Source: a bacterium (GTDB lineage: Bacteria; JAMCPX01). Taken from it: 7,389 nt of DNA. Under the pieces are notes generated by a model. It was given only the letters and a program-made list of their open reading frames with translations. It searched no databases and was not told the DNA's origin. Position numbers and translations under genes: made by a program. The DNA is taken from positions 1 through 7,389 of the forward strand of contig JAJYJX010000123.1 of the NCBI GenBank assembly GCA_021789095.1. Direction: 5' to 3'. Positions 1 through 3,044 of the stretch are shown one piece after another (position 1 is the first letter of the stretch; every line of letters starts with the position of its first letter).

Positions 1-90
1 CCGATCTATCATAAGGATCATGGCAATAGCAAACCTTCCCACGTAAGGCTTCAAATACCTGAACAATCGTGCAGCGATTTCCCTGTTCAT
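1..90 (-). CDS. msbA: MsbA-like lipid A/lipid ABC transporter, N-terminal 30 residues only
   Basis: Only the first 30 codons lie in the window; the gene continues past the left edge. The peptide starts MNREIAARLFRYLKPYVGRF and runs into a hydrophobic stretch (AIAMILMI). This is the usual opening of an exporter-type ABC half-transporter: a short amphipathic elbow helix with an 'L.RYLKPY' motif, then the first membrane helix. MsbA-type proteins flip core-lipid A across the inner membrane, and the position directly after lpxB supports that role. The ATG (90-88) overlaps the lpxB stop as ATGA. It is preceded by AAGGG (102-98) with 7-base spacing, inside the end of lpxB, so the start is well supported and translation is probably coupled. 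The ATP-binding half cannot be seen, so another lipid-exporting ABC protein remains possible. Confidence 0.75.
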   Translation of the reverse strand, partial: MNREIAARLFRYLKPYVGRFAIAMILMIDR

Positions 91-1331
91 ACCTCTGCCC
101 TTAAAAGGCTTATAACCTCCTGTGCCGCCCTGCGGGACGCATCCATGCTGCTCAGTACATTCCTGAGCCTGGAATAACCCTCTATCATTTTACTGTAAGC
201 CGCGCTGTCCTTAAGGTACTCATCTATCTTCATTGCAAGTCTGCCCGGGCTCAAATCGTCCTGTACGAGTTCAGGCACTATGTCGTCACCCGTAGCTATA
301 TTTACTATACCTATGCGCTTAATGGAAAGGAGCATTTTTGCTATTATATGCGATAAAAGCGAAACTTTGTATATAATGATCATCGGTATGCCGAGCAAGG
401 CTGTTTCAAGCGTTGCGGTACCGGAAGTGACCACTGCAAAATCCGATGCACCCACGGCATTGTACGTATCGTCGACAATCAGTTTTATGGGAAGATCATA
501 CCCGCTTATTACCTGCATGCACATTTCAGCCTGTGATGCAAGCACCGGCACAACAAAAAACAGCTCTTTGTGCGCATCTTTGAGGAGCATTGCGGTTTTG
601 AGCATTATGGGCAGGTGGCGCCTCACCTCGGATGCCCTGCTTCCGGGCAGCATGGCAATTACCCTCCTGTCAACCGGTACTCCGTACTTCTTTAAAAGGT
701 TTGGCCTGGAATCAGACATCTTCACCTCTTTTATCAGGGGGTGGCCCACAAAGGCCACGTTTATACCCGCTTCCCTGTAAATATCTTCTTCAAATTTGAA
801 GATCACAAGTACCTGCTTGAAATACTTTGCAATCTTTTTGATCCTGCTCTTCCTCCATGCCCACACCTGCGGGGATATATAGTAGACAAGCGGTATGCCT
901 TTTTCATACAGCTTCTTTGCAAGCCTTAAGTTAAAATCCGGAAAATCTATCAGTATGCCAAGGTCAACATGCTCATCATACGCAGTACGAACGGCTGTTT
1001 TAAAAGCCCTGTTTATCATGCCGAGGTGCCTTATTACCTCCGATACACCTACGACCGCTATTCTGTCGGCATCAAATATGATCCTTACGCCTGCCTGCTG
1101 CATCAGCATACCGCCTATGCCGATAAATTCAACGTCCTCATTTTTATTAATCCCCGCTCCTTCCCCTGTAGTAATCCCCCCTATCCCCCTTTTAGTAAAG
1201 GGAGCAGGGTACCCAAGCGAAGCTTGGGTCGGGGATTTGTCTTTAAGCAGTTGAGATTTGATGGCTTTTACAAGATTGGCGCCGTGCAGATCCGCTGACG
1301 GCTCACCTGCTATTATCAGGACCTTTTTCAT
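87..1331 (-). CDS. lpxB: Lipid-A-disaccharide synthase LpxB with an in-frame N-terminal insertion
   Basis: LpxB (GT19 family, peripheral inner-membrane enzyme) joins 2,3-diacylglucosamine-1-phosphate to UDP-2,3-diacylglucosamine, giving the lipid A disaccharide. The 414-residue product has the family landmarks in order: GEPSADLHGA (residues 9-18), IGIGG (70-74), VVGVSEV (93-99), IDFPDFN (128-134, with the conserved Asp pair), YYISPQVWAWR (150-160), GHPL (196-199), LPGSR (228-232) and SGTATLE (303-309). E. coli LpxB has 382 residues. The excess is explained by about 37 extra residues (roughly 28-64) between the first helix and IGIGG, encoded by a palindromic element described separately. In the later conserved block, where an Ala-Gly-Arg signature is usual, this protein has T-G-D (347-349) before IVPELVQ. 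The ATG at 1331 gives the standard N-terminus and lies 29 bases inside the upstream oxidoreductase gene; the TGA overlaps the next start. Whether the inserted form is fully active cannot be judged from sequence. Confidence 0.95.
   Translation of the reverse strand: MKKVLIIAGEPSADLHGANLVKAIKSQLLKDKSPTQASLGYPAPFTKRGIGGITTGEGAGINKNEDVEFIGIGGMLMQQAGVRIIFDADRIAVVGVSEVIRHLGMINRAFKTAVRTAYDEHVDLGILIDFPDFNLRLAKKLYEKGIPLVYYISPQVWAWRKSRIKKIAKYFKQVLVIFKFEEDIYREAGINVAFVGHPLIKEVKMSDSRPNLLKKYGVPVDRRVIAMLPGSRASEVRRHLPIMLKTAMLLKDAHKELFFVVPVLASQAEMCMQVISGYDLPIKLIVDDTYNAVGASDFAVVTSGTATLETALLGIPMIIIYKVSLLSHIIAKMLLSIKRIGIVNIATGDDIVPELVQDDLSPGRLAMKIDEYLKDSAAYSKMIEGYSRLRNVLSSMDASRRAAQEVISLLRAEV
1149..1237. repeat. 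Palindrome-rich MITE-like element inserted in frame within lpxB
   Basis: The stretch is bounded by an 8-bp perfect inverted repeat, AATCCCCG at 1149-1156 and CGGGGATT at 1230-1237, spanning 89 bp. Inside are an 8-bp-stem hairpin (1211-1229), a 6-bp-stem hairpin (CCCTTT at 1187-1192 with AAAGGG at 1197-1202) and runs of C at 1161-1190. On the lpxB strand it encodes a Gly/Pro/Thr-rich stretch including PFTKRGIGGITTGEG, with no counterpart in ordinary LpxB proteins. From memory, similar C-run/CTTT-N-AAAG-G-run repeats, and peptides of the type 'PLFQRGVGGI', are dispersed in many deltaproteobacterial and Nitrospirota genomes; this is not verified here. No clear target-site duplication is visible, so the outer boundaries are approximate; the alignment with E. 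coli LpxB suggests about 108 extra bases (around 1143-1250). Confidence 0.7.
1211..1229. repeat. Perfect hairpin inside the lpxB insertion
   Basis: ACCCAAGC (1211-1218), a 3-base loop GAA, and GCTTGGGT (1222-1229) form an 8-bp perfect stem. It encodes part of TQASLGY (LpxB residues 35-41). It could fold in the mRNA about 100 bases downstream of the lpxB start codon. There is no U-run after it on the transcribed strand, so it does not look like an intrinsic terminator. Confidence 0.75.
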
Positions 1332-2268
1332 AACCTACAACTTTGAGATTTTTCTCTATCTTACCGAGTATTTTGAATGCGTTCTCAAGCGCAAGCAGGC
1401 CGTCCCTGCCTTTTACAACCGGATCATTTTTTGTTTTTACCGCATGGATAAAGCTTTTTATCTCTTCGAGCAGGCTGTCCTCTTTTGATATCTCAAGCTG
1501 TTTTGCCTCAAGCTCCGGCTGCGGGCATTGATTTACCCTTATTATATTGACCCTTGATGTTCCATAGTCTATCGAAAAATAGCTGTCCCTCTGGAACAGG
1601 CGTATCTTCCGCATCTTTTCCGAAGACACCCTGCTCGCGGTTACATTGGCGACACAGCCGTTTTTGAACTTGAGCCTTGCATTTGCTATATCAATCTTGT
1701 CTGTCAGCACAGGGACACCCACGGCATCTACAGATACGACATCGGACCGGATCAATGAAAATATAATATCAAGGTCATGGATCATAAGGTCTCTTACAAC
1801 ATCCACATCCGTGCCCCTGACTGTAAAGGGACTCAGCCTGTGCGCTTCTATAAAAACGGGCCTTTTTATCATGCCGCTTACAGTCCTTATCGCGCTGTTG
1901 AAGCGCTCGAGATGGCCGATCTGGAACGCAACGTTGTTTTCCTCCGCGGCCTTTACAAGTTTCCTGGCATGGCTTACTGTATCCGCAATAGGCTTTTCAA
2001 GCAGTACAGGTATGCCCTTCCTGAGGAAATACCCGGCGACATCATAGTGGCTTACCGTGGGCACTACCACACTCACAGCATCGACAAGCCCGTAAAGTTC
2101 CCTGTAATCACCGTACGTATCAACCCCGAACCTGTCGTGCGCAGCCGTTCTTTTGGCTTCGTCCGTATCAGCGACTGCAGCAAGTTCCGCATCTTGAAGC
2201 TGTGTGTACTTGTCGCAGTGGAACGTGCCGAGATACCCTGCACCGACAACGCCTATCCTCAGTTTCAT
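1303..2268 (-). CDS. Gfo/Idh/MocA-family NAD(P)-dependent oxidoreductase (GnnA-like by position)
   Basis: The 321-residue protein starts MKLRIGVVGAGYLGTFH, a Rossmann fold with GAGYLG at 9-14. It carries the family EKP motif at 91-93 (the Lys is the usual catalytic/cofactor residue), GHLERFN at 118-124 and RDLMIHDLD at 159-167 (D160 and H164 fit the family's Asp-x3-His catalytic pair), then the C-terminal alpha/beta domain. These enzymes oxidise sugar hydroxyls, often on UDP-sugars. The slot between lpxA and lpxB is where Acidithiobacillus ferrooxidans has gnnA, whose product oxidises the 3-OH of UDP-GlcNAc before GnnB transamination, giving lipid A with amide-linked primary chains. That function is inferred; no GnnB-like gene is adjacent. 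I chose the ATG at 2268-2266 because it overlaps the lpxA stop as ATGA, has AGGT 7 bases upstream and begins right at the Rossmann strand. A TTG five codons earlier (2283) is possible but poorly spaced from a ribosome site. The 3' end overlaps lpxB by 29 bases. Confidence 0.88.
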   Translation of the reverse strand: MKLRIGVVGAGYLGTFHCDKYTQLQDAELAAVADTDEAKRTAAHDRFGVDTYGDYRELYGLVDAVSVVVPTVSHYDVAGYFLRKGIPVLLEKPIADTVSHARKLVKAAEENNVAFQIGHLERFNSAIRTVSGMIKRPVFIEAHRLSPFTVRGTDVDVVRDLMIHDLDIIFSLIRSDVVSVDAVGVPVLTDKIDIANARLKFKNGCVANVTASRVSSEKMRKIRLFQRDSYFSIDYGTSRVNIIRVNQCPQPELEAKQLEISKEDSLLEEIKSFIHAVKTKNDPVVKGRDGLLALENAFKILGKIEKNLKVVGYEKGPDNSR

Positions 2269-3044
2269 ATCCTGTACCTGCAAACACCTCTTTTTGACGT
2301 CTGGATGAACTCTATTATACAGGATATGTCCCGGTCCTGCGGGAGGTCCTCTTTTACTTTTTTGATGGCGTCATGAAGGCTGTAATTGCTCCTGAACAGG
2401 ATCCTGTAAGCCTTTTCGATAAGCTGGATCTTTTCCCTGGTATACCCCCTCCTCCTCAGGCCTATTACGTTTATGCCGTACAGTTTTACCCTGTCTCCGT
2501 TTGCGATCGCATACGGAGGGACATCCATTGATACCATTGAACCGCCGCCTATCATGGCAAGCTTGCCTATCCTTGCGAATTGGTGCACTGCTATAAGCCC
2601 GCCGAGTATTGCCATGCTCTCGATTGTTACATGTCCTGCAAGAGTGGCATTGTTTGCGAATACGGTGCCGTCACCGACAATACAGTCATGCGCAATATGC
2701 GAGCCGATCATGAATAGGTTATTATTCCCTATGGTCGTTATAGCCCTGCCTGTAGGAGTGCCGGGATTAATGGTCACATGCTCCCTTATGATGTTGTTGT
2801 CGCCTATCACCAGCCTTGTGGGCTCGTTTTTGTACTTAAGGTCCTGCGGCGGAGAGCCGATTGACGCAAACTGGAATATCCTGTTATTGCTGCCGATCTC
2901 GGTATGCCCGTCTATAACAGCAGACGGACCAACAACGGTCCCGTCCCCAAGCCGGACATGCGGGCCGATGACTGCGTAGGGTCCTATCTCAACGTTCCCG
3001 AGTACAGCGTCCTTTGAAATAACGGCAGACGGATGTATGTTCAT
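2265..3044 (-). CDS. lpxA: UDP-N-acetylglucosamine acyltransferase LpxA
   Basis: LpxA catalyses the first lipid A step, transferring a 3-hydroxyacyl chain from ACP to the 3-position of UDP-GlcNAc in the cytoplasm. The 259-residue protein (E. coli 262) has hexapeptide repeats of a left-handed beta-helix over about residues 3-185. Landmarks include FQFASIGSPPQDLKY (57-71), REHVTINPGT (87-96), MIGSHIAHDC (112-121), NNATLAGHV (131-139), AVHQF (152-156) and DVPPYAIANGD (174-184), followed by the helical C-terminal domain (LRRRGYTREKIQLI onward). H119 aligns without gaps to the E. coli catalytic His125. G167 aligns to E. coli Gly173, the acyl-chain 'ruler' residue, so a long chain is plausible. The ATG forms ATGA with the fabZ stop and has a near-ideal Shine-Dalgarno. 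Because a GnnA-like gene follows, the sugar acceptor might be the 3-amino analogue of UDP-GlcNAc; the sequence alone does not decide this. Confidence 0.96.
   Translation of the reverse strand: MNIHPSAVISKDAVLGNVEIGPYAVIGPHVRLGDGTVVGPSAVIDGHTEIGSNNRIFQFASIGSPPQDLKYKNEPTRLVIGDNNIIREHVTINPGTPTGRAITTIGNNNLFMIGSHIAHDCIVGDGTVFANNATLAGHVTIESMAILGGLIAVHQFARIGKLAMIGGGSMVSMDVPPYAIANGDRVKLYGINVIGLRRRGYTREKIQLIEKAYRILFRSNYSLHDAIKKVKEDLPQDRDISCIIEFIQTSKRGVCRYRI
2276..2279 (-). promoter_or_regulatory. Ribosome-binding site choosing the oxidoreductase start
   Basis: AGGT at 2279-2276 lies 7 bases before the ATG at 2268, within the last codons of lpxA. The stronger GAGGTG at 2290-2285 is only one base from the TTG at 2283 and 16 bases from the ATG, which suits neither start well. 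This favours the ATG, though not decisively. Confidence 0.45.

Follow-up and report, generated by a model that had tools for sequence, protein, structure and literature searches.

What accounts for the extra residues in the lpxB gene at this locus, and how did they come to lie there in frame? The window, that is, the whole stretch of 7,389 nucleotides that was analysed, is the entire contig C55 of the source genome G000 (a draft of 2.15 Mb in 203 contigs). It carries on its minus strand bamA, skp/ompH, lpxD, fabZ, lpxA, a Gfo/Idh-type oxidoreductase gene and lpxB. The lpxB gene (87 to 1331, minus strand) encodes a lipid-A-disaccharide synthase of 414 amino acids, as identified by TIGR00215 (290 bits against a cut-off of 190), Pfam (LpxB, E 1e-91) and an AlphaFold2 model. 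A sequence-only reading of the window had proposed that a palindromic repeat was inserted in this gene, and the open 414-codon frame and the low-complexity insert that it described are both present, with the insert at residues about 31-60. The oxidoreductase gene (1303 to 2283, minus strand), UDP-GlcNAc 3-dehydrogenase-like, sits between lpxA and lpxB, and could be a pointer to amino-sugar (GlcN3N-type) lipid A; the partner aminotransferase for such a lipid A is absent from the window.

The gene was compared across nine genomes of the phylum (G000 to G008), which represent one family and four genera. The LVKAI(K)-to-FIGIGG spacing is 43 residues in the LpxB of G000, against 7 to 15 in the six insert-free members of the family; filled loops in the family are 43 to 60 residues long. 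Residues about 28-60 are missing in six of the eight relatives, and the remaining two carry an insertion there. The proposed gain of about 37 residues is close to the difference from the shortest loop (36), whereas the net gain over same-family orthologues with loops of 14-15 residues is 28-29.

Within the insert, the core palindromic element (1172 to 1238, minus strand), delimited by a covariance model, R1, and by other copies, consists of an outer stem and two hairpins, and codes for KSPTQASLGYPAPFTKRGIGGI. Its size is 65-67 bp and the repeated core spans 1173-1237. On the coding strand, the 5' arm of the outer stem, AATCCCC, lies at 1231-1237 and the 3' arm, GGGGATT, at 1173-1179, both recognized from sequence and fold. 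Between them lie hairpin 1, ACCCAAGC-TTC-GCTTGGGT (1211 to 1229), seen as an inverted repeat with compensatory changes across the family, and hairpin 2, CTCCCTTTACTAAAAGGGGG (1185 to 1204), found by pattern match and fold. The adjoining sequence at 1149 to 1173, TACTACAGGGGAAGGAGCGGGGATT, is a degenerate second copy of the 3' half of the element (18 of 25 bases identical to TACTAAAAGGGGGATAGGGGGGATT), and to judge by this match it may have arisen by duplication of that half. All these features are on the minus strand of the window.

The inverted repeats noticed beforehand, 1149-1156 with 1230-1237 and 1211-1218 with 1222-1229, are both there. The first pair had been taken for the ends of the element, but the natural outer stem is formed by 1231-1237 with 1173-1179, and the left arm at 1149-1156 belongs to the degenerate duplicate. 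Nor is an 8-bp inverted repeat unusual, since the window holds 12 such pairs against an average of 9.9 in base-shuffled sequence. The C/G skew is raised in 1173-1205 only (0.41); over the whole insert it is 0.16, about that of the rest of lpxB (0.14). What settles the insertion is the fact that the element is repeated elsewhere.

A DNA search of the source genome found copies on contigs C127 (89% identical) and C16 (81% identical), as well as partial ones, and copies at E<=0.01 turned up in seven of the eight relatives. The R1 model was built from eight copies with the lpxB copies excluded, and comprises the outer stem, hairpin 1 (ACCCAAGC/GCTTGGGT) and hairpin 2 (CCCCCTTT/AAAGGGGG). At E<=0.01 it matched all nine genomes of the phylum, with 6 to 26 matches each, and at E<=1e-8 it matched eight of the nine as against none of 89 genomes outside. 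Applied to the lpxB inserts, it scored 76.5 bits (E 1.5e-19) in G000 and 61.8 bits (E 5.5e-15) in G004, and gave a weak match in G001 (25 bits, E 0.001). The sequence is multicopy and dispersed across the source genome and its relatives, as had been anticipated, and it is neither single-copy nor common to all close relatives. A search of a plasmid collection gave no match.

The two hairpins differ in their distribution. In the genomes sampled, hairpin 1 with its ACCCCG linker was confined to the phylum, where eight of nine genomes have it as against none of 89 elsewhere. Hairpin 2 and the AATCCCC/GGGGATT ends, on the other hand, correspond to a palindrome for which we coined the name CCCCCTTTNNAAAGGGGG. 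Of 290 genomes sampled, 37 have exact matches to this palindrome, one of them as many as 118, where most reversed controls gave almost none. With a widespread hairpin 2 palindrome and a hairpin 1 specific to the phylum, the element has the look of a common palindrome joined to a phylum-specific hairpin. A literature search gave no description of CCCCCTTTNNAAAGGGGG, seemingly a widespread repeat, and an exact-string search on the CCCCCTTT palindrome returned unrelated papers only among the matches listed. Two genomes of 2.6 Mb outside the phylum, G232 and G123, have 118 and 93 exact matches to CCCCCTTTNNAAAGGGGG and none to the reversed control. At least seven copies of a near variant of hairpin 1, combined with another second hairpin (TCACCCCCACGACCCAAGCC...GGGTGCCCCGCCTCCCCCGTCGAGGGGGAGG), lie on a single 66-kb contig of G001 (C22; loci L163, L164, L167, L171 and L172).

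We examined where the copies lie with respect to genes. All three full copies in G000 are in frame in conserved genes, namely lpxB, murI (glutamate racemase), where the copy is close to the C-terminus, and the gene for a glycerophosphodiester phosphodiesterase (GDPD); the murI and GDPD orthologues are without the insert. The best copies in the phylum, 14 in number, score 55 bits or more. Four of them lie within genes and nine outside recognized genes, the latter called by ORF inspection only. The remaining one, a fifth genic copy, sits N-terminally in a G008 gene of the outer-membrane efflux type, whose true start is uncertain. The five genic copies share one sense and use more than one reading frame, and three of the six frames of the element consensus are stop-free. 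The G008 gene was considered as a source of an empty site and set aside, since its flanks have diverged too far to place the junctions exactly. We likewise rejected the idea that other hairpins had left remnants in the short lpxB, murI and GDPD loops of relatives, where fold z-scores are only +1.1 to -2.2. The short lpxB loop of G005 (L044) has an 8-bp perfect hairpin, CTTGCCGG-CATGC-CCGGCAAG, with a fold z-score of only -1.7.

These copies bear on whether the insert could be an artefact of assembly or binning. The genome is a draft in 203 contigs and the window is one whole short contig, but the frame is open all along, the element occupies this site in a second genome (G004) too, and G000 itself has two more in-frame insertions. 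We find an artefact hardly credible.

The effect on the protein was assessed with AlphaFold2, using an alignment of 31 LpxB proteins. The model has a mean pLDDT of 87.8 and a pTM of 0.83, and is confident everywhere outside residues 36-63. This is the sole stretch with pLDDT below 50, and it falls between a helix (11-30) and a strand (67-73). The alignment with the solved LpxB structure 5w8s has its gap at the same loop, between helix 1 and strand 2. Together with the low score, this makes a disordered loop at the protein surface the most likely form of the insert, in agreement with the exposed position first supposed for it. The intact frame and conserved residues suggest that LpxB activity would be kept, and the inserted peptide probably has no function and would be neutral.

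The 108-nt insert stretch folds better than all of 200 dinucleotide shuffles (z -3.75 as RNA, -4.9 as DNA), which would also suit a functional RNA or regulatory hairpin acting on stability or translation of the lpxB message, with coding only incidental. Compensatory changes in hairpin 1 across the family speak for such a role as well, since 30 distinct sequences contain 16 double-changed cells against 5.0 in shuffles, none of 500 being as high. However, the compensatory pairs resemble separate subfamilies and are explicable by mobility alone, and eight close full copies show no covariation over the whole element, their stems decaying uncompensated. Copies also occur in unrelated genes and intergenic places, six of the eight relatives are without the element in lpxB, and no Rfam family matched in the window. 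A regulatory role is accordingly very improbable. Taken together, the pairing kept in hairpin 1 across subfamilies and the decay among close copies form the pattern expected if structure is needed while the element spreads but no longer once it has landed.

Insertion of a non-autonomous, dispersed palindromic repeat in frame into lpxB is, as an explanation of the whole, very probably correct. The element, with its AATCCCC/GGGGATT ends, outer stem and two hairpins, would spread through the genomes of the phylum, its best copies being mostly intergenic. A copy that landed in a tolerant surface loop, with the frame kept and no stop, could persist as a short unstructured peptide, and in LpxB such a peptide between helix 1 and strand 2 would let the enzyme retain its fold. 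The element is presumably mobile. A mobilizer of the RAYT/IS200 type was considered and rejected, as no copy was seen within about 1.5 kb of the 27 Y1_Tnp matches, which come from eight of the nine family genomes, with some flanks ending at contig ends. No target-site duplication was evident by eye in the flanks, and the orthologous flanks are highly diverged.

Whether the lpxB site was filled once or repeatedly was approached through the relatives. In G004 the element interrupts lpxB at the same codon and in the same frame as in G000, and G001 has a 60-residue loop, equal in length to that of G004, of degenerate element-like sequence. G008, the sister of G001, is without the insert, although the two lpxB genes are 95.5% identical over the remainder. 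The lpxB genes of G008 (L042) and G001 are identical over the first 68 nt, differ wholly in the loop, and then return to about 95% identity, a pattern that suggests local replacement by recombination. Near-identical genomes yielded no clean pair of filled and empty sites.

A single ancient insertion in the family ancestor, retained as an LpxB loop in G000, G004 and G001 and lost elsewhere, would account for the agreement of G000 and G004 in position and frame and for the equal loop lengths in G004 and G001; if the latter two share their insert, a loss in G008 is needed in either view. In an LpxB tree made with the loop left out, however, G000 groups with the insert-free G002 and G005 (support 96/93) and G004 with G001 and G008, so that presence of the insert requires at least three changes. 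Silent divergence between G000 and G004 is lower in the insert than in the rest of the gene, both at third positions (7 of 25 differ, against a fraction of about 0.55 elsewhere; Fisher p 0.012) and, with small counts, at fourfold sites (2 of 10 against 69 of 127; p 0.049). Yet G004 and G001, which split later, have an ungapped DNA identity of only 43% in the loop. The hairpin 1 forms differ too, being AAGC/GCTT in G000 and close to ATCC/GGAT in G004. We regard one old insertion as rather unlikely, though with such small counts an old insertion that later underwent conversion is still conceivable; tree position, low silent divergence and the differing hairpin 1 subfamilies favour independent insertion or conversion, and we infer separate events in the G000 and G004 lineages. 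More tentatively, and somewhat short of probable, the lpxB loop could be a repeated landing or conversion site, filled independently in at least two lineages with the frame kept by machinery that favours the site or structure, and loops in this phylum would be renewed by mobile hairpins.

The best-known protein-coding palindromes are those of Rickettsia and Wolbachia, which are obligate intracellular bacteria and for which weak selection is often invoked. The likeness to Rickettsia palindromic elements (RPE) that the sequence-only reading drew is apt as an analogy. RPE and Wolbachia palindromic elements (WPE) are short, have terminal inverted repeats, and lie between genes and within them as in-frame extra peptides (PMC2229807; PMC10969869), and the lpxB element, a palindrome too, likewise ends in inverted repeats and lies in frame in conserved genes. 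However, RPE are 105-146 bp long and specific to Rickettsia (PMC2229807), and those of R. conorii are reported with a CGTC end (PMC3733652), whereas the present element is 65-67 bp long, has two hairpins and AATCCCC/GGGGATT ends without a CGTC end, and occurs in full only in another phylum among the 98 genomes sampled. Intragenic REPs of the GTAG and CGTC families are small hairpins, often paired, whose units or dimers in ORFs code for 20-30 residues, at times with two insertions in one gene such as uvrA (PMC3733652). The lpxB element shares the small paired hairpins inside ORFs, but has neither GTAG (at the hairpin foot or in the consensus) nor a CGTC tag, its outer stem encloses both hairpins, and it differs from GTAG REPs in that no copy adjoins a Y1/RAYT transposase gene. 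MITEs such as Correia/NEMIS and ERIC are non-autonomous, bounded by terminal inverted repeats, and sometimes produce in-frame gene fusions (PMC2229807); the element resembles them in its terminal inverted repeats, with ends of 7-9 bp and 78% of cells paired, but these ends are short, about 7 bp, and no target-site duplication was evident by eye.

The element lacks what characterizes RPE (length, CGTC end and host) as well as what characterizes GTAG REPs (the tag and RAYT linkage). Like intragenic palindromic repeats in general, it is dispersed, in frame in conserved genes and absent from orthologues, so we file it as a putative new family of protein-coding palindromic repeat. The kind was known already from RPE, WPE and intragenic REPs; what this locus newly adds is a repeat family, a lineage and what looks like recurrence at a single lpxB loop. 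The same behaviour is thereby extended to a distant, apparently uncultured phylum and to core envelope genes, possibly more than once at one site, and hairpin repeats may thus give rise to new protein loops more generally. As the family has both filled and empty orthologues, tolerance and recurrence are directly testable. In G004 (C261), an ORF of 670 amino acids (L180, 47 to 2056) holds the element together with SFPRNRES, SVIPVKTGIQ, DESDEAISS and LSPLKRGDARGV, several different repeat-like peptides, in one variable region, as if that region collected many repeat families.
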